Positions 48,627 to 56,110 of a stretch of DNA of 64,000 nt are shown here, in pieces; position 1 is the first letter of the stretch, and each line of letters begins with the position of its first letter. The notes under the pieces were generated by a model that was not told where the DNA came from, made no database searches, and saw only the letters and a program-made list of their open reading frames with translations. The stretch spans positions 2,016,361 through 2,080,360 of the forward strand of contig NZ_AP018042.1 in the NCBI RefSeq assembly GCF_002356295.1, given 5' to 3'. This DNA comes from Labilibaculum antarcticum (lineage in GTDB: Bacteria > Bacteroidota > Bacteroidia > Bacteroidales > Marinifilaceae). The position numbers and the translations under genes were made by a program.

Positions 48627-49175
48627 AGTTCTATTCTTTTTCTACAACAAAGAACGACCATTTCATACTCCCAAAGGTTACCTATACTTCCATTTATGTG
48701 TGTAATAGCTTTTAATTGGAGACAATGGGAACATACTATACAGAATTGAAACTATAGTAAACACATCGATACTAGTGTACTAAAAATAAATACTGACAAT
48801 CGAAGTATTTATTTGATTACTGCATTCACCATTACATGAAAATCTTTAATTTTGAGACTATGGAACACACCTTCTATTTTATGGCCTGTGATTCGACTTA
48901 CTACTCATTAGTAAGAAACTCAACTATTTTAGACGAACATCATGAGGTGAAAAATCTATACTGAATAAAAAAGAGACGGAACTAAAATACTAAAGATAAG
49001 TACCATGATTGGTTAGTTAGCGACGATTTAAAAGAATGGACTTCATTGTTTGATACAAGAACAAAGGAATAAATTCGAATAGCCAAACGCGAAAAAAAAG
49101 TCGAAAAGCAAATTTTTTAAAATAACAGCCCTATATTTAAGCGTATTTAAAAAACATCTTATCTAAATTATTAAA
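48627..49175. other. intergenic region, divergent promoters
   Basis: Non-coding AT-rich gap between GH130 (minus) and a cupin-type gene (plus). At 48998-49008 it holds AAGTACCATGA, an 11-base exact match to the core of the rdhA promoter element. Nothing else recognised. Confidence 0.45.
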
Positions 49176-50000
49176 ATGAAAAAGCATATAACAACTATCC
49201 TATTTCTATTATCATTTGTGGTAAGCTTGTACAGTCAAGAAATTCCAATTGAAAATCTAAAGACACAATTACATGAAAATACGCAACAATATTCCAAATC
49301 AATTCTAGAAAATGAAATTAAAGGTATTCATGTTGCGCACATAGCTCTTACAGGCGAAAATCCAATAATAGATTATTCTAAAGAAGGTTACAAAACAATA
49401 TACTTGTTTGTAAAAGGTAAGGGAAATGTAATTGCCGCGAATACAAGTTATGAGATTATTCCGGAAACGATCTTATTACCCAATATCGTTAAAAATATCA
49501 CGATTAAAACAGCAAAAAACGATACCCTGCACTACCTAAAAATAACAAGTAAATTAAGTGATCAAGACCTTAAAGATTTAAAAGAATTTCCAGCTAGCAA
49601 CACTCAAAATGTATATTATTCGAAATTCACAGATTGCCAATCATATACCGAACCAATTAAAAGTCCAAATACAATAAGTCGTACAATACTCCCTAACAAA
49701 TACATTCCTAGAATTGCGATGGGAACAGTTCAAACAAAAGGTCCCGATAAAGTTGGTGCTCATGAACATCCAATGTTAGAACAATTATTTTTAGGTTTAT
49801 CAAAAAATAATTGTGTTGTTTATGCTGATGATGCTAAAGTAGATTTTTCGCAATATTCTGTACTTCACATCCCATTAGCTTCAAGTCATTCTGTTTCCGT
49901 TGAAAAAAACGAAATTATGTATTATGTTTGGATGGATTTCTTTTTAGATAAAAAAGGGGAAGAATGGCTAAAAACTCATAATGTAAATGATGACAACTAG
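49176..50000 (+). CDS. secreted bicupin-like protein
   Basis: 274 residues, signal peptide MKKHITTILFLLSFVVSLYSQ. Two cupin-like halves: the first (about 50-125) has IIDYSKEGYKTIYLFVKGKGNVIAAN and LLPNIVKNI; the second (about 170-265) has RIAMGTVQTKGPDKVGAHEHPMLEQLFLGL, with the HEHP and Glu metal-type positions, and VLHIPLASSHSVSVEKNE. It could bind a metal or a small ligand in the periplasm; no enzymatic function is evident. Convergent with the rdhC-like gene, 15 bp apart. A link to the dehalogenase locus is only a possibility, from the element match upstream. Confidence 0.72.
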   Translation: MKKHITTILFLLSFVVSLYSQEIPIENLKTQLHENTQQYSKSILENEIKGIHVAHIALTGENPIIDYSKEGYKTIYLFVKGKGNVIAANTSYEIIPETILLPNIVKNITIKTAKNDTLHYLKITSKLSDQDLKDLKEFPASNTQNVYYSKFTDCQSYTEPIKSPNTISRTILPNKYIPRIAMGTVQTKGPDKVGAHEHPMLEQLFLGLSKNNCVVYADDAKVDFSQYSVLHIPLASSHSVSVEKNEIMYYVWMDFFLDKKGEEWLKTHNVNDDN

Positions 50001-50015
50001 TCACAATCATTTTTG

Positions 50016-51200
50016 TTAAGGGTTTGCTCTTTTTGCTTTCCATTTGTTCATTATCAATCTTCTTACATGAGTAAAATGATCTGCCACAGCACCTATCGGA
50101 CATAGATAAGTACACCACGGTCTTTTAACAAACATTGATGAGACTAAAATGATTCCCAATATCGCAAATTGGAAATTACTTCCCGTTAGTTTAAACAAAG
50201 TCCCAAATATTTCGTAGCTCGTTACACCGGGATTTCTTACTAATAATGCTACAACAATGGCAAACAGAGTTATTATTCGTAAGGTCCACTTAAACACCAT
50301 CTTAAATTTCCCAGCCGATCTTGGTTTTGCTCCTCCCACCAATCCCATGCACTCTTGAGCGGCTCCAAATGGGCAAAACCATTGACAATACGGGTTTTTA
50401 TTATCTACGGTAAGTACAAGAAAAATACCCCCCAAAAGCAGATACCAATACAAATGCGAATGTAAGGGAGGAAAATACCCCAAAAGCAACTGGTTTATCA
50501 TGGAAAGTGTAAAAGGTTGATTGTAATAAAATCCGATTACAAATAGGCCGACGAGCATGGTTCCCCACCTAGCTATTTTTGTGTGTTTAAAGGTTTTTTT
50601 ATGAGCGAAATATCCCACTGCAAAAAGTAAGAGCAAAACCATTTCAGCAGTACCAAACTGTATGGTGGGTGATTCTTCTTTCGGAACATCAAAACCAAGC
50701 ACATTGGCTGCAATAAACCGGTTCCCTTTTTTTGAGGCTTCCAATATAGCTCGAGACGAATAAGTAGCACTTGAAATACCATCTACCTCTTTGCCCAGTG
50801 AATAGTCTTCTTGATACGATTTGCCAATAATTCGATCTAAAAACTTAGCATCGAGAACTTTTTTTAGATAGGAAGGGGTTTCTTTTGAGTTAACTACTGC
50901 TAAATCAAACACTTTCCCTTTTTGATCAACAGCAACAGCCATTAGTAGTGGACCACCATAACCCATTGATGATTCCATGGTCAGATACCCTAACTGTTCT
51001 TCTTCCGAATTGTAAATTTTGTAAGTCGCTTCGTCAATTTTTTCCAATTTGACGATCTCAGGCATTTTTGCCTTAACCGAGGAAAGGATATCTGCACCCT
51101 CCAATTGCCTTCCAACGAACCAAGCTATTATTACTACCAGCATGGCAATAATAGCCAACCATGATTCTATTTTCTTACTATTTATTTTACTACTAGCCAT
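50016..51200 (-). CDS. rdhC: RdhC-like FMN-binding, CxxxCP membrane protein (NosR/NirI family)
   Basis: 394 residues. N-terminal TM helix, then a periplasmic FMN-binding domain (about 45-170) with DGISSATYSSRA at 140-151; Thr146 is the candidate for covalent FMN attachment, though Ser144 replaces the usual Gly of the SGAT motif. Five further hydrophobic helices follow, with two CxxxCP motifs: CQWFCPFGAAQEC and CTYLCPIGAV. This architecture is that of RdhC, accessory to reductive dehalogenases, and of NosR/NirI; it may move electrons from quinol to the periplasm or serve maturation. The gene lies 204 bp after rdhB, behind a hairpin, with its own -7 box. The name rests on context. Confidence 0.83.
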   Translation of the reverse strand: MASSKINSKKIESWLAIIAMLVVIIAWFVGRQLEGADILSSVKAKMPEIVKLEKIDEATYKIYNSEEEQLGYLTMESSMGYGGPLLMAVAVDQKGKVFDLAVVNSKETPSYLKKVLDAKFLDRIIGKSYQEDYSLGKEVDGISSATYSSRAILEASKKGNRFIAANVLGFDVPKEESPTIQFGTAEMVLLLLFAVGYFAHKKTFKHTKIARWGTMLVGLFVIGFYYNQPFTLSMINQLLLGYFPPLHSHLYWYLLLGGIFLVLTVDNKNPYCQWFCPFGAAQECMGLVGGAKPRSAGKFKMVFKWTLRIITLFAIVVALLVRNPGVTSYEIFGTLFKLTGSNFQFAILGIILVSSMFVKRPWCTYLCPIGAVADHFTHVRRLIMNKWKAKRANP

Positions 51201-51291
51201 TGTACTGCATTAGAATATCGACTATCCACCTTTTTTTGTTTCTGGATAGCCTGAGTGTTTAACATGTTTTGATTTATAATCGATATAATCA

Positions 51292-51299
51292 CAAATCTA
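51292..51299 (-). promoter_or_regulatory. possible rdhC-like gene promoter, -7 box
   Basis: TAGATTTG on the minus strand, 91 bp upstream of the rdhC ATG; the same octamer precedes the AraC gene (55548). No -33 TTTG. Confidence 0.4.
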
Positions 51300-51319
51300 T
51301 ATGGATTCTCTTAAATAAG

Positions 51320-51352
51320 TAAGACTATAAACATATAATGTTTATAGTCTTA
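51320..51352 (-). terminator. strong AT-rich hairpin between rdhB and rdhC
   Basis: TAAGACTATAAACA-TATAA-TGTTTATAGTCTTA, perfect 14-bp arms. It may end or attenuate the rdhAB transcript before rdhC, or stabilise its 3' end. Confidence 0.6.
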
Positions 51353-51404
51353 TTCCTCATACAAATCAATTACAAATAAATAGATCTACTTATCATTATA
51401 TAGA

Positions 51405-51719
51405 TCATAAATTAATTTTTTTATTTTTAGCAGCTCTCTTCGTTAAGGATCTGAATACAACGACAGCCATTATTAGAATAGGCATTCCCATAAACACAAC
51501 AGAAAGCCATGCTGCCTGGGGTTCAAACTCTTGAAAAGATGCAATAAAGGTTTGACTCATAAACATAAAAGTAACAAAGCTCAGAATCACTAAAATCCAC
51601 TCGTACCAAACTAATTTTAAATTAGCATTTTTTAGAATGTGCCATATCATAACAGCTCCTCCACCCATTAAAAAACCGACCAAAACATACCAGAACCAAA
51701 TCCAACTAATTAATTTCAT
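51405..51719 (-). CDS. rdhB: RdhB-like membrane anchor of the reductive dehalogenase
   Basis: 104 residues with three hydrophobic helices (ISWIWFWYVLVGFLMGG, WILVILSFVTFMFMSQ, SVVFMGMPILIMAVVVF). Length and topology match RdhB anchors, which hold the exported RdhA at the outer face of the inner membrane. Family-type motifs are WYEW between helices 1 and 2, and EFEPQAAW, with Glu and Trp expected on the extracytoplasmic side. 83 bp behind rdhA with a hairpin in between. Small anchors diverge quickly, so the call leans on position, size and topology. Confidence 0.78.
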   Translation of the reverse strand: MKLISWIWFWYVLVGFLMGGGAVMIWHILKNANLKLVWYEWILVILSFVTFMFMSQTFIASFQEFEPQAAWLSVVFMGMPILIMAVVVFRSLTKRAAKNKKINL

Positions 51720-51757
51720 ATAATTATAATTTTATTTTATTTGCCCTATGGAACTCA

Positions 51758-51773
51758 TCCCGAATAGTCGGGA
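51758..51773 (-). other. rdhA-rdhB intergenic hairpin
   Basis: TCCCGA-ATAG-TCGGGA, perfect 6-bp arms. No T-run, so more likely an mRNA-stabilising or processing element that could raise rdhA over rdhB. It shares CCCGAATAG with the hairpin at 53690. Confidence 0.45.
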
Positions 51774-51802
51774 CTCGTTTCATGGGGTTTCCCTTTATAT
51801 TA

Positions 51803-53260
51803 TTATGAACGTGATTTATCTAAACCGTATAGAGGAATATCCATTGGATCAAGATCCCATGGTGTTTCAGTAAGATCCCCTTCTTCTCCATAGCCAAACA
51901 CATCATCCATTTTTCGAATTGCTGAATTCAACATAGGCGTAGTTCCGATTGATAATTTAATTAGGTCATGTATTACGGCGTCATCAAATTTTGTAAACGG
52001 ACAAACAGTTTGACAGCGACTACAATCTGGTTCGCCTCCCAACATATAGGTATAACACTTTTTGGCATCCATATACCATCCTTTAATACCTTTTGCTTGA
52101 CAGGCAGCATCACCACCCCAGAATGGTTTATCTTCCATGCTAATGGCACCAGAAGGACACATTTCGCCACATTTCTTACAGGTCTCACAAAATTTGGTAA
52201 TACCGGCATCTATCGGTTTTGTTACTGCCAACGGCATGTCTGTAATTGTTATCATTACAGTTCTTATATCGGTTCCATATTTTGGACTAACCAGTATTCC
52301 TGCTCTACCATATTCTCCAAGTCCCGCCATCACTCCAAAACCTACCGAACGTCCCATAGATTCAGTATCTCCTCCATAGGCTTGATATCCTAAACCTCTT
52401 AAGAATACACTCAATCTATTTCCGAAAATATTAGCTCTAGAATAACTCATTGTATTACTAGAAGCCCAGCTCATTCTCTCTGAGTATTGCTGCATCCATA
52501 ACGACTGAGGTACAAGAGAACATATTGCCCACAACTCTTTATTTGGTAGAACAAATTTGTTGTTTTCTGGCTCTGCATATCCTCTCTCAACCTCTTCAAA
52601 TTGAATCTTACCCCAAAGTAATTTCTTTGTTTTTTCGTCAAGCTTTACAAAGCCCATATCAGCAGCCCCTATAATTCTTCCAGCTGTTCTTAACATTTTG
52701 GAGTTTTCCTCTGGTGTACCTTGATGTTTTTCTACGCCATAATCTTCTGGAGTATAATACATAGTAGGATGCTCCCACTTAGGATTCGACTTAACGTCAG
52801 CACCTGCCCATGGCGCAGCTAAATCAGCACCAGAACGTCCTCCCCAACCCCAACAGTTAGCGTCCGCTAAAGCTCTGTCTTTTAGCGACAGCCCAGGAAC
52901 ATTATCTTGAACATTTTTCTTGGTAGATTCAATGTTCTTATTGTATATATCAAAGTATTCTTTTGGATTTTCCCAGGAAGCAGGATTAAATAATGTATTC
53001 TCGGGACCATGGAATATTTCCAGATTCTCCCAATCAATTTCTACTGTAGGCTCATCCACCTCTTTAACCCAGAACGGTAATTTCCGTTCAGCTAAAGGGG
53101 AAATCATCATTTCATCCAGATTTTTAGATCCATCAACACCCAATCCAGAAGCACCGAATCCTACGAAACCTAATCCCACAGCTCCAGCTCCTACTCCTAT
53201 TTTTTTCATAAAATCTCTTCGACCTACTGTTGACTGGCATTTTTCCTTTGACTTTCCCAT
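51803..53260 (-). CDS. rdhA: reductive dehalogenase catalytic subunit (Tat-exported, corrinoid/Fe-S)
   Basis: 485 residues. The N-terminus has a Tat motif (Arg14-Arg15 in GRRDFMKKIG) and a hydrophobic signal (GVGAGAVGLGFVGFGASG). The C-terminal half has LSVFLRGLGYQAYGG, GELGR-like GLGEYGRAGILVSPKYGTDIR, and two iron-sulfur motifs: Cys358-x2-Cys361-x2-Cys364-x3-Cys368-Pro, and Cys402-x10-Cys413-x2-Cys416-x3-Cys420-Pro. This is the RdhA plan (corrinoid domain then two 4Fe-4S clusters). The relative QueG lacks a Tat signal and anchor gene. The organohalide cannot be read from sequence. Its promoter carries the element shared with the DUF4405 gene. Confidence 0.9.
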   Translation of the reverse strand: MGKSKEKCQSTVGRRDFMKKIGVGAGAVGLGFVGFGASGLGVDGSKNLDEMMISPLAERKLPFWVKEVDEPTVEIDWENLEIFHGPENTLFNPASWENPKEYFDIYNKNIESTKKNVQDNVPGLSLKDRALADANCWGWGGRSGADLAAPWAGADVKSNPKWEHPTMYYTPEDYGVEKHQGTPEENSKMLRTAGRIIGAADMGFVKLDEKTKKLLWGKIQFEEVERGYAEPENNKFVLPNKELWAICSLVPQSLWMQQYSERMSWASSNTMSYSRANIFGNRLSVFLRGLGYQAYGGDTESMGRSVGFGVMAGLGEYGRAGILVSPKYGTDIRTVMITITDMPLAVTKPIDAGITKFCETCKKCGEMCPSGAISMEDKPFWGGDAACQAKGIKGWYMDAKKCYTYMLGGEPDCSRCQTVCPFTKFDDAVIHDLIKLSIGTTPMLNSAIRKMDDVFGYGEEGDLTETPWDLDPMDIPLYGLDKSRS

Positions 53261-53313
53261 TTTGAACTCAGTTTATATTCGACACCTAATTTCTCTGTTG
53301 AATGTATTCTAGG

Positions 53314-53321
53314 CAAATATA
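53314..53321 (-). promoter_or_regulatory. rdhA promoter, -7 box
   Basis: TATATTTG on the minus strand (TAnnTTTG), 53 bp before the rdhA ATG and 22 bp from the shared element. There is no TTTG at -33, as expected for an activator-dependent promoter. Confidence 0.6.
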
Positions 53322-53343
53322 AAAGATTAGGCTAGTGATGATG

Positions 53344-53380
53344 AGAGACTAAATGCGGATTTCATGGTACTTTTCAACGA
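53344..53380 (-). promoter_or_regulatory. 37-bp activator element copy A (rdhA promoter)
   Basis: Matches the element at 54496-54532 at 29 of 37 positions by my count, including AGAGACTA and TGGTACTTTTC (plus-strand sense). It sits just upstream of the -7 box, where an AraC-type activator would bind, and the araC gene is in the same cluster. Confidence 0.65.
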
Positions 53381-53689
53381 AAACGTTTGTAATGGTCCTT
53401 TTTAATGTCAGTCTCTACTAATTTGTATCTGCATTTTGAGTACTAGAAACTCTTAATGTGGTTCGGAGATTTCTCGATTATCCAGCAAAAATAAACAAGG
53501 GATTGATTAGCAATAACAAATATTCATGTTCATTTTTCGAAAAGATACTCTGGGAACTTAAAATATGTAGTTTTAGAGTGAAGCTCCACATCCCATGTAG
53601 TTGGGTATCCACGCTATTACTTTTTATCTTGCCCTGTAGGGTGGGAAATTAAGTTCACAAGCTCTGTGCAGCCAATATAATCCAAAGAA

Positions 53690-53712
53690 CCCGAATAGCA
53701 AAGCTATTCGGG
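53690..53712. other. CCCGAATAG hairpin
   Basis: CCCGAATAG-CAAAG-CTATTCGGG, perfect 9-bp arms, behind the DUF3861 gene on the minus strand. It may end that transcript, although the T-run is missing. Shares the arm sequence with the hairpin at 51758. Confidence 0.5.
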
Positions 53713-53776
53713 ATCAACTGCATTCATAAATAATACCCTTTAAATATCAAGTGCTAATCTCATTGTATAAATAATA

Positions 53777-54058
53777 TTATTTTCCTTTCCCGGAACTTTT
53801 TAATCTCTTCATAAAATCTTTAAAATGAGGCATCAAATTTTCAAATAGTGAATTGTCCTTTTGCTTTAGCATAACAGCTGTAAATAATTTCAACCCAACT
53901 CCCAATATAGCTGCCTCATTATTATCAAAATCGGGATGCTGTTTCAACTTCTCAACAATTGCCAAAATATTTTCATGGCTTTCAGCTTCAAATTCTAATT
54001 TTTCATCAGAGAATTTGTTTTCATCAACAATTTCCTCTACCGTTATTTTATATCTCAT
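53777..54058 (-). CDS. DUF3861 family protein
   Basis: 93-residue cytoplasmic protein. The blocks MRYKITVEEI, LEFEAESHENILAIVEKLKQHPDFD, AAILGVGLKLFTAVMLKQKDN and LFENLMPHFKDFMKRLKSS match the DUF3861 pattern as I recall it (HDDIxxIVE, GLKLFxEVML). The function of the family is unknown. It follows the DUF4405 gene by 22 bp, so both should be on one transcript from the promoter that carries the shared element. Confidence 0.75.
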   Translation of the reverse strand: MRYKITVEEIVDENKFSDEKLEFEAESHENILAIVEKLKQHPDFDNNEAAILGVGLKLFTAVMLKQKDNSLFENLMPHFKDFMKRLKSSGKGK

Positions 54059-54080
54059 TGAATTACACTTTTATATCTTA

Positions 54081-54416
54081 TTAATCTTTAAGCATCGAAG
54101 TGCTGATTTCAATTTCTTTTATAATGCTTTTGTCTAGTGGCTTATTAAATCCAACAACATATAGCAACATCATAATTGCTATCATTACAATCCCAAACAC
54201 CAATACAGTTTTACTGTCTAAATATTTTTTTATTGATTTAAAATTGTAATAAACATGGAGGATTCCGGCTATTGTCATAACAATTCCGAATATTTTATGC
54301 ACAGGATGCATCCTTAATTGAAATTCGAAACTGTCTATAAGTATCATCATTATTCCAGATGATGCTATGGCTAGTAACGAAACAAGCAATGTGGTAGAAA
54401 CTATTTTTCTTATCAT
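54081..54416 (-). CDS. DUF4405 membrane protein (cytochrome b-like helices)
   Basis: 111 residues with three hydrophobic helices (TTLLVSLLAIASSGIMMIL, IFGIVMTIAGILHVYYNF, VLVFGIVMIAIMMLLYVVGF). MHPVHKIFG and LHVYYN supply His residues in the positions typical of DUF4405 proteins, which resemble b-type cytochromes. That makes it a candidate quinol-side or heme component for electron supply. Its promoter shares the 37-bp element with rdhA at the same spacing. Heme binding is inference from family resemblance. Confidence 0.75.
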   Translation of the reverse strand: MIRKIVSTTLLVSLLAIASSGIMMILIDSFEFQLRMHPVHKIFGIVMTIAGILHVYYNFKSIKKYLDSKTVLVFGIVMIAIMMLLYVVGFNKPLDKSIIKEIEISTSMLKD

Positions 54417-54465
54417 TTTAATTCTCTCTAAATCTAACTTTTAAAAAACTGCAACTTTTACGAAA

Positions 54466-54473
54466 CAAAATTA
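54466..54473 (-). promoter_or_regulatory. DUF4405/DUF3861 promoter, -7 box
   Basis: TAATTTTG on the minus strand, 49 bp before the ATG and 22 bp from its copy of the 37-bp element, exactly as at rdhA (both offset by 1152 bp). Confidence 0.6.
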
Positions 54474-54495
54474 TTCGTTAAATTCATGATTGGCA

Positions 54496-54532
54496 AGAGA
54501 CTAACTGCTGATAATGTGGTACTTTTCGATGA
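54496..54532 (-). promoter_or_regulatory. 37-bp activator element copy B (DUF4405 promoter)
   Basis: Second copy of the element of 53344-53380; conserved cores AGAGACTA and TGGTACTTTTC in plus-strand sense. It lies in the gap between the AraC gene and the DUF4405 gene. Confidence 0.65.
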
Positions 54533-54588
54533 TGTGACAATTAACCTGATAACGATTAAAAATAGTAGTGTCGAACCAAAGAATATTA

Positions 54589-55527
54589 CTAGAGTTTAAT
54601 GTGGTATTTTTTTCTGATTTCTTCTCTGTACTTTGATGAACTTTTCCCCGTTTCACGTTTGAAAAACCGGCTAAAATAGGAAGCGTCTTCAAAATTAAGC
54701 GCGTAAGCAATTTGCGCTGTTGTTGATTCCGTATTGGCTAATCTTCTTTTTGCTTCAAAAATTATTTCTTGTCGAATCAATTGCCCAGGCGAATAACCGG
54801 TAATGTCTTTAACGGTATCTCTAAGATGAGTTGCACTTATTCCTATCAAATCAGCGTATTCCTGTACAGAACGAACAGTGAGATAATTTTCCGAAACCAG
54901 TTGTCTGAATTTACGAACCATTGTATTCGTGGTATCCAAAATATTCGTTGGCTGTTCCTTGGCATAAATACGAAGCAGATTCACTAGTAAAACATGAGTA
55001 TAAGCCCTAAATATTGAAAGAGAACATTCTGATTCTCTCGCGTACTCTTCGCTAAGAGCACCAAGTAATTCCTGTATTTTAGGTAAATTATCATCATTAA
55101 TGCAAACGTCTGGAGCTTTACTTAAACCATTAAAAATTACCAAATCATCTTCATCGTTAAAACCGGTTGCAGGAGGAATAAGAAATTCTCTTGGAAAAAG
55201 AATAACCTTTCCGGTTAATGCTTTTTTTAGCTTCCAAAAATGGATTTGCCCTTTCGAAATAAAATAAAAAGCAGGTGGCTTTATTTCGTACGCTTCGTAG
55301 TCGATTATATGTTTTCCCGAACCATCTTCTATAAATAGGATTGTATAATAATCATGCCGATGAGGAAATTCAGCTTGAGCATCATCATTCATTATTCCAA
55401 TTTGAGTCATTGTAAATGGAAGATTCGGATCAATGGAAAGAATGGGATGACCATCCATTAAATTAACTTTTTTATAAGTTTCTGAATAATAATGGAATGG
55501 TAAGTCTTCTTTATTATGCATATCCAT
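54589..55527 (-). CDS. AraC-family transcriptional regulator
   Basis: 312 residues. An N-terminal cupin-type ligand domain (AEFPHRHDYYTILFIEDGSG, YEIKPPAFYFISKGQIHFW) and a C-terminal double helix-turn-helix (VRSVQEYADLIGISATHLRDTVKDITGYSPGQLIR, IAYALNFEDASYFSRFFKRETGKSSSKYR, read as blocks) of the AraC/XylS type. It is the first gene of the cluster and the only regulator nearby; the shared element in the rdhA and DUF4405 promoters is the natural candidate target. The inducer is unknown. A -7 box TAGATTTG is 20 bp upstream. Confidence 0.92.
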   Translation of the reverse strand: MDMHNKEDLPFHYYSETYKKVNLMDGHPILSIDPNLPFTMTQIGIMNDDAQAEFPHRHDYYTILFIEDGSGKHIIDYEAYEIKPPAFYFISKGQIHFWKLKKALTGKVILFPREFLIPPATGFNDEDDLVIFNGLSKAPDVCINDDNLPKIQELLGALSEEYARESECSLSIFRAYTHVLLVNLLRIYAKEQPTNILDTTNTMVRKFRQLVSENYLTVRSVQEYADLIGISATHLRDTVKDITGYSPGQLIRQEIIFEAKRRLANTESTTAQIAYALNFEDASYFSRFFKRETGKSSSKYREEIRKKYHIKL

Positions 55528-56110
55528 CTAATTTATTTCTAACAATTCAAATCTAAAACAAAAAAAAACCTATCATCTTTGGGATAAAAAAACAATAACT
55601 TTTGTAGGCAGTAATATAACAAAAAATAGGCGTAAGCAACAACAAAGTAACAGTATGCGCCTACAATGTCCTTAAGTTAAACGGAAGATATGTTTCCGGC
55701 TGAAAGCCTTTTTGTAAAATACTAAGATGAATGAAATGATGAAAAAAAATTACCCAAGCAAGGGTGTTTTAGATTGCTGTATTTTACAGTTTGTAATCGA
55801 GCCAACTGATATTTTTGACCTAGGGCAATTAAGACCTGAGCCACTATAATATAAATTGGCTTTTTTTTCACACCCTCCTAAACGGATAAGCGATCGAGTG
55901 ACGATCGGGATGAAATACTTAGATTAGATCCAGATAAAAACCCCTTAAATCCCCCTTACAACAACTCTATTTGCAGGCTTCACTCTCCGCAAAGGCTTAT
56001 TTCCGAGGCAATGAACACCTATCATTACCCTTTTCATTACTTATTCCTCTCCTGAGAGCAAAGGCTCAACCATTGTCTTCGTCAGTTTTTTGATTTGTTT
56101 CTATTACTTC
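55528..56110. other. intergenic region between AraC and pyruvate kinase genes
   Basis: Contains the AraC gene -7 box TAGATTTG (minus strand, 55548-55555) and a weak stem TAGGCG / CGCCTA (55636-55667). The rest (A-rich, with CGATCGAGTGACGATCGGG near 55886) shows no gene. The end of the pyruvate kinase transcript should lie here, but no good terminator was seen. Confidence 0.45.

Follow-up and report, generated by a model that had tools for sequence, protein, structure and literature searches.

Candidate operators of an AraC-type regulator in the reductive dehalogenase gene cluster of Labilibaculum antarcticum and its marine relatives

The question raised by this locus is whether two similar DNA elements, one before the reductive dehalogenase gene rdhA and one before a gene for a small DUF4405 membrane protein, are binding sites through which a regulator encoded in the same cluster controls both genes. 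The locus lies in a 64,000-nucleotide stretch of Labilibaculum antarcticum DNA (contig NZ_AP018042.1, positions 2,016,361 to 2,080,360), referred to here as the window; all coordinates are given within it. A sequence-only reading of the window had proposed that the AraC-family protein of the cluster activates both promoters. The features concerned, in minus-strand order, are:

54589..55527, minus strand: AraC-family regulator, 312 aa, the proposed activator (Pfam AraC_binding and HTH_18)
54494..54531, minus strand: element B, candidate operator (outer half-site 54515-54531, inner half-site 54494-54510)
54466..54473, minus strand: TAATTTTG, -7 box of the putative DUF4405-DUF3861 promoter, 49 bases from the DUF4405 start codon (TAnnTTTG equally distant in 18/19 Bacteroidota sites)
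54081..54416, minus strand: DUF4405 small membrane protein, 111 aa (Pfam PF14358, 2.5e-07)
53777..54058, minus strand: DUF3861 protein, 93 aa (Pfam PF12977, 4.4e-29)
53690..53712, minus strand: terminator-like hairpin of 10 pairs in the gap between DUF3861 and rdhA
53342..53379, minus strand: element A, candidate operator (outer half-site 53363-53379, inner half-site 53342-53358)
53314..53321, minus strand: TATATTTG, -7 box of the putative rdhA promoter, 53 bases from the rdhA start codon
51803..53260, minus strand: rdhA, reductive dehalogenase catalytic subunit, 485 aa (TIGR02486, 3.8e-78)
51405..51719, minus strand: rdhB-like small membrane anchor, 104 aa, assigned by position and conservation
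50016..51200, minus strand: rdhC-like FMN-binding/polyferredoxin membrane protein, 394 aa (Pfam FMN_bind and Fer4_5)

By sequence criteria, the rdhA product would be classed as a respiratory reductive dehalogenase: it matches TIGR02486 with 263.5 bits (cut-off 160.35), carries a TAT signal (20.3 bits, cut-off 16.7), and has a Fer4_7 dicluster domain above cut-off with two 4Fe-4S motifs. The rdhB-like protein has no family match in Pfam or NCBIfam, and its gene is the next one after rdhA in 10 rdhA loci, with 57-84% identity; the name rdhC for 50016..51200 is our own assignment. The DUF4405 protein is a possible cytochrome-b-like electron carrier and may feed electrons to RdhA, as suggested by DUF4405-like proteins located within three sister rdh clusters, whose matches to cytochrome b561 or ferric reductase all fall below the Pfam cut-off. 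Nine terminator-like sites occur in 7.1 kb, against 3.7 expected, and the hairpin at 53690-53712 is the richest of them in G-C pairs; its position between DUF3861 and rdhA implies that rdhA probably needs its own promoter. A 274-aa frame adjoining the cluster (49176-50000) matched nothing in Pfam or NCBIfam. Elsewhere in the genome are two RDase-like genes that are more distant, at 29% and 33% identity (G000:C1:4997275-4998645 and 3171699-3172343), and a genome-wide pattern search detected no element near either of them.

The two 37-bp copies described earlier (53344-53380 and 54496-54532) were confirmed, with 29 of 37 bases identical, as was the gap of 22 bp between each minus-strand copy and its TAnnTTTG box. 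The 1152-bp offset shared by elements and boxes also holds, and is a mere consequence of equal site-to-box spacing at both sites. The -33 TTTG is absent from both promoters, as had been stated, the slot being occupied by CTCA in copy A and by CTTG, which has three of the four letters, in copy B. In 200 first-order Markov simulations of the region 52500-56000, the best direct 37-mer match averaged 25.0 of 37 bases with a maximum of 28, and 29 was reached in 0/200 runs. Taken alone, the 29/37 match is suggestive and not conclusive. A search of the 5.72-Mb genome with the 32-base pattern GAAAAGTACCANNNNATCNGCANTTAGTCTCT (at most 3 mismatches) returned the two window sites only, and a reversed-control pattern returned 0 matches; because the pattern was built from both copies, the window matches arise by construction and the absence elsewhere is the informative part. 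The footprint conserved in relatives, listed above, is slightly offset from the original 37 bp. A third partial copy (54597-54618, family D3) falls within the coding frame of the AraC gene, has a matrix score under 8 bits and was attributed to chance. An Rfam scan of 49000-56100 yielded no RNA family at gathering score, leaving a known RNA element unsupported. The Bacteroidota phylum uses a promoter type other than sigma-70, and a sigma-70 promoter scan showed no excess (30 against 28.9 expected).

Conservation of the element was assessed at orthologous loci, the comparison that the sequence-only reading had called for. Searching the genome collection for rdhA returned 10 loci, six of them from Bacteroidota (Lutibacter citreus, Labilibaculum filiforme, a Labilibaculum MAG, Ancylomarina, Maribacter polysiphoniae and Lutibacter oricola); with the window, G026 from the family search and G795 from the order search, these make up nine Bacteroidota orthologues. 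The element stands upstream of rdhA in all nine, at identical spacing, and the absence that would have counted against the proposal was thus not observed. Ten more sites were found within six of the nine clusters, for a total of 19. TAnnTTTG begins exactly 22 bp past the 32-mer in 18 of these 19 sites, and TAATTTCG occupies that place in the remaining one. The stretch between element and box carries information only at a few positions beside the element; since it is so little conserved, the spacing is what is kept. Genome-wide, all 15 pattern matches in seven distinct genomes fall inside the AraC-rdh cluster (reversed control 0), with the row pairs G028/G057 and G049/G058, which have identical coordinates, each counted once. 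The sites used to build both pattern and matrix had first come to light in rdh loci, so these matches are partly by construction; the independent tests are G795, the Shewanella loci described below and the genome-wide absences.

The ten additional sites precede genes of several kinds. OsmC-like genes stand behind five of them (L. filiforme, Ancylomarina, L. citreus twice and Maribacter), DUF4405 genes behind those of the window (B) and L. citreus, a CMD gene behind one in Maribacter, and a TonB receptor gene and an MBL-fold gene behind two in L. oricola. The window cluster is without OsmC-like, CMD, MBL-fold and TonB-receptor genes, and in other genomes many of the cluster genes are not preceded by a site. 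In L. citreus, a Phenol_MetA_deg gene is located behind rdhC. Proteins of the OsmC-like kind, about 430-470 aa long, are found repeatedly in the clusters and also beside a Shewanella AraC (L053:6270-7556, L053:11053-12474, L072:10473-11765), with two OsmC-matching stretches and, by eye, a hydrophobic stretch near the N-terminus. In M. polysiphoniae the OsmC-like gene behind the element is interrupted (L056:5082-5930 and L056:5937-6368), unlike the single frame of about 430 aa in relatives, and the second of its pieces scores slightly below the Pfam cut-off (27.0 against 27.5). The rdh clusters of L. oricola and G795 contain apparent CMD-OsmC fusions of 634 and 636 aa (L026:427-2331 and L071:4231-6141), each matching CMD and OsmC above cut-off.

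The internal structure of the element points to the kind of protein that might bind it. The conserved stretch covers positions -3 to 34, and shifting the element against itself gives the highest self-identity at 21 bp (0.452; other shifts at most 0.355), revealing C..T....AGT..C.TA in both halves. The element can thus be described as two 17-bp half-sites in direct repeat, 21 bp from centre to centre with 4 bp between them. The repeat is imperfect: column permutation gives p=0.004 for a shift of 21 and 0.051 for any shift from 8 to 24. In 18 of the 19 sites the last four bases of the inner half-site (positions 31-34) occupy the -33 slot, 20 bp before TAnnTTTG; in the other one they precede TAATTTCG. 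These slot bases are CTTA in 12 of the 19 sites, and no -33 TTTG was present in the 18 sites checked, where TTG appears in the slot stretch only within the CTTG of copy B. The half-sites are therefore arranged as in an araI-like operator, as a direct repeat about two helical turns apart with the inner one abutting or overlapping -35/-33.

The cluster regulator has a domain structure consistent with such a site. It combines an N-terminal cupin-like ligand-binding domain (PF02311, 5.2e-08) with a C-terminal AraC-type double HTH (HTH_18, 1.9e-19), both above cut-off, and its PDB matches include the DNA-binding domains of AraC (2k9s) and MarA (1bl0). The best NCBIfam match is the 4-hydroxyphenylacetate regulator HpaA, whose 115.3 bits are far below the cut-off of 274.65. 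In an alignment with six Bacteroidota orthologues, from which the L. oricola one was left out, the DNA-binding domain is 85-89% identical, against 58-72% in the linker.

Regulator, dehalogenase and element also occur together across genomes. The AraC gene shares a contig with rdhA in all eight genomes searched (the nine with rdhA less Ancylomarina), the seven copies outside the window being 70-78% identical. Among 56 genomes of the window's family, AraC orthologues (>70%) and rdhA orthologues (>80%) are present in exactly the same four, a coincidence whose chance would be 2.7e-6 under independence of the genomes, an assumption that does not hold. The window RdhA is 90% identical to that of the flavobacterium L. 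citreus against 87% to that of the same-genus L. filiforme (G028; loci L017, L018), suggesting that the cluster has moved horizontally; with clusters that appear to have moved in this way, the genomes cannot count as independent. Of 395 genomes sampled evenly across the phylum, with the best few candidates of each scored, none but that of the window showed AraC at E<=1e-60; a similar 395-genome sample gave the element in that genome (2 sites) and one 3-mismatch match, lacking the box, in G196. The order sample (393 genomes) contained rdhA at E<=1e-120 in two genomes, both with AraC and the element, and the sample of Maribacter's family (397 genomes) in Maribacter alone. G795, picked up through rdhA alone, carries both AraC (70%) and the element. 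Distant rdhA loci from two Desulfoluna and one Chloroflexi (L022, L023, L024) show no element above 8 bits, nor was this AraC found in the genomes concerned; the link thus does not extend to every rdhA of this type.

A complementary view comes from Shewanella, where the element was found with no rdhA beside it. AraC homologues at E<=1e-50, 42-44% identical, are present in 3 of 152 Shewanellaceae genomes, at four loci, with two homologues (44% and 42%) in Shewanella algicola. The matrix built from Bacteroidota places the element directly behind araC at all four loci, with 27.8 bits at three and 15.1 bits at one; over these loci, 500 column-permuted matrices scored at most 21.5 bits, and 15.1 was reached by 4/500. 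The three 27.8-bit sites are near-identical and amount, with the fourth, to about two independent cases. Within these four loci, tblastn found no rdhA. The S. algicola rdhA lies on another contig (L025) and begins at the contig end, which cuts off its promoter, and a genome-wide pattern search gave no match in this genome beyond the two behind the AraC homologues. An MBL-fold gene, 62-63% identical to the L. oricola gene that follows an element, stands behind the element at L073 and L078, and an OsmC-like gene at L072. The remaining locus, L079 (G1337), looks decayed: araC is broken into two frames (L079:8338-9278) and the MBL-fold gene is absent, while the element is intact. A loosened pattern gave perfect matches only at the four Shewanella places and none in 20 other Shewanellaceae; as it was derived from the Shewanella sites, the four matches follow automatically and only the lack of further ones is informative. 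With two mismatches it gave five matches in 3 of the 20 other genomes, which is not above the reversed control (13 in 10/23 genomes). The Shewanella sites lack TAnnTTTG, as expected for the promoters of another phylum. Lying behind araC with no adjacent rdhA, the element thus tracks AraC across phyla and is not a feature of rdhA.

Three other explanations have to be set against these observations. The two copies might owe their resemblance to chance or to paralogous similarity without function, given that a best 37-mer match of 25/37 is to be expected in the region anyway. Comparison contradicts this, since the element recurs at the same spacing in nine Bacteroidota genomes and accompanies an AraC homologue in three Shewanella genomes, and the explanation is hardly credible. 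It is also conceivable that the elements are operators of a different regulator, such as a second AraC, a CRP/FNR protein or a response regulator, and that the cluster AraC is merely nearby. In the accessible parts of PMC12090745 and PMC7755780, rdh genes elsewhere are described under CRP/FNR, MarR and two-component control. In five clusters (L. filiforme, L. oricola, the Labilibaculum MAG, G026 and G795) the first AraC gene has another behind it, with 76-85% identity to the L. filiforme copy; this second AraC, however, is missing from the element-bearing clusters of the window, L. citreus and Maribacter, which excludes it as the shared binding protein, and in the four copies aligned its DNA-binding domain has only 30-34% identity with that of the window AraC. 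Palindromic sites are typical of CRP/FNR and MarR proteins, whereas the element scores better as a 21-bp direct repeat (0.452) than as its best dyad (0.391), and no CRP/FNR match was detected among the eight window proteins tested, which sets the locus apart from CprK-type control with its palindromic dehalobox. The position of the Shewanella element, directly behind an AraC homologue with no rdhA in the neighbourhood, likewise argues for the AraC protein as the partner, and a different binder is improbable.

The direction of control is a separate matter. AraC-family proteins can repress, and an inner half-site overlapping the -33 slot would suit a regulator that represses, or acts in both directions, rather than simply activating. 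Activator-dependent promoters are characterized by an upstream site, fixed spacing and a missing -33 element, whereas repressor sites more often overlap or follow the start. The arrangement observed here, with the site wholly upstream of the -7 box, a fixed spacing and no -33 TTTG in the 18 sites checked, is that of the former group, and repression or dual action is unlikely, if slightly less so than a different binder.

The AraC control proposed by the sequence-only reading is thus favoured by the element before nine of nine Bacteroidota rdhA genes, its association with araC in Shewanella and its 21-bp direct-repeat layout. From features that can be read in the sequence (the element, its spacing, layout, conservation and co-occurrence) we infer binding, activation rather than repression, and an inducer. 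It is very likely that elements A and B are operators of the cluster-specific AraC activator (54589-55527), which would co-induce rdhABC and DUF4405-DUF3861. In the proposed mechanism, an AraC dimer, or two molecules, would bind the two 17-bp direct-repeat half-sites, the inner of which ends precisely in the -33 slot, 20 bp upstream of the TAnnTTTG box. Because the promoters are without a -33 TTTG, bound AraC would stand in for the missing contact and recruit RNA polymerase. Inducer-bound AraC would then turn on rdhA, with rdhBC behind it, together with the DUF4405-DUF3861 pair. The inducer is most likely a halogenated aromatic, probably a halogenated phenol; sites before OsmC-like, CMD and MBL-fold genes, and the Phenol_MetA_deg gene of L. 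citreus, suggest an aromatic compound.

A broader proposal is that AraC and its operator form a portable switch separable from the dehalogenase. In Shewanella the switch would be coupled with only an MBL-fold or OsmC-like gene, and it would work with two promoter types, the Bacteroidota -7 TAnnTTTG type and a proteobacterial one. In Bacteroidota it would have brought rdhABC, OsmC-like, CMD, MBL-fold and TonB-receptor genes together in one coordinated regulon for halo-aromatics, whose operators travel with it between orders. This proposal is about as likely as not. If AraC control is correct, an AraC-type switch with a defined operator would represent a further class of rdh regulator, in a phylum where organohalide metabolism is only beginning to be recognised. 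The analysis yields a concrete operator, a partner protein and a gene list for testing, and the putative regulon points to OsmC-like and MBL-fold proteins as dehalogenation partners in marine bacteria.

Published work offers several points of reference. Btr is an AraC-family protein. The accessible part of PMC12908670 describes Marinifilaceae bin.4, which shares the window's bacterial family and has a Btr-like gene upstream of an RDase whose transcript rose about 1,650-fold within 30 min of 2,6-dibromophenol; that part gives no operator for the regulator. It also reports corrinoid RDases, among six Labilibaculum genomes, only in L. antarcticum and L. filiforme. Identity of the bin.4 RDase with this rdhA was considered and is unsupported: against the three rdhA orthologues compared, the published qPCR primers mismatch at 7-8 of 20 positions, and the bin.4 gene is probably not the same rdhA as that of the window. 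The literature searched, with subscription papers mostly outside its scope, contained no AraC operator for rdhA, and the only relevant mentions of an AraC-rdh link, in the portions available, were this Btr-like gene and a passing list in PMC8865925. The available parts of PMC6797604, PMC12125979 and PMC9765461 leave the interpretation unchanged. Characterised rdh regulators are of CRP/FNR, MarR and two-component types according to the introduction of PMC12090745. The sequences compared here indicate that an AraC switch with its putative sites is found alongside this dehalogenase in other marine bacteria as well.

The closest parallels each share some features with the cluster. CprK, a CRP/FNR protein, controls rdh genes in Desulfitobacterium (PMC7755780, in the part available); like the window AraC it is a cluster-encoded one-component regulator of a reductive dehalogenase, but the protein families are unrelated. 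The same portion of PMC7755780 describes a two-component system for PCE in Sulfurospirillum, with a CTATW-N17-CTATW direct repeat that overlaps the -35 box or lies further upstream. Direct-repeat operators thus occur at several promoters of a dehalogenation gene region in that system too, which differs in its OmpR-type response regulator and in the length and sequence of the repeat. At araBAD, E. coli AraC uses the araI1-I2 operator, two 17-bp direct-repeat half-sites with 21-bp spacing, the inner one overlapping -35. A difference from E. coli AraC is that, in the loci scanned, the gene of the regulator itself is preceded by no site of more than 10 bits; the half-site sequence also differs from that of araI, and the promoter is of the Bacteroidota -7 TAnnTTTG type. 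The likeness to AraC and araI1-I2 extends to 17-bp half-sites, a 21-bp direct repeat, an inner half-site at -35/-33 and a regulator that joins a cupin domain to an AraC-type DNA-binding domain.
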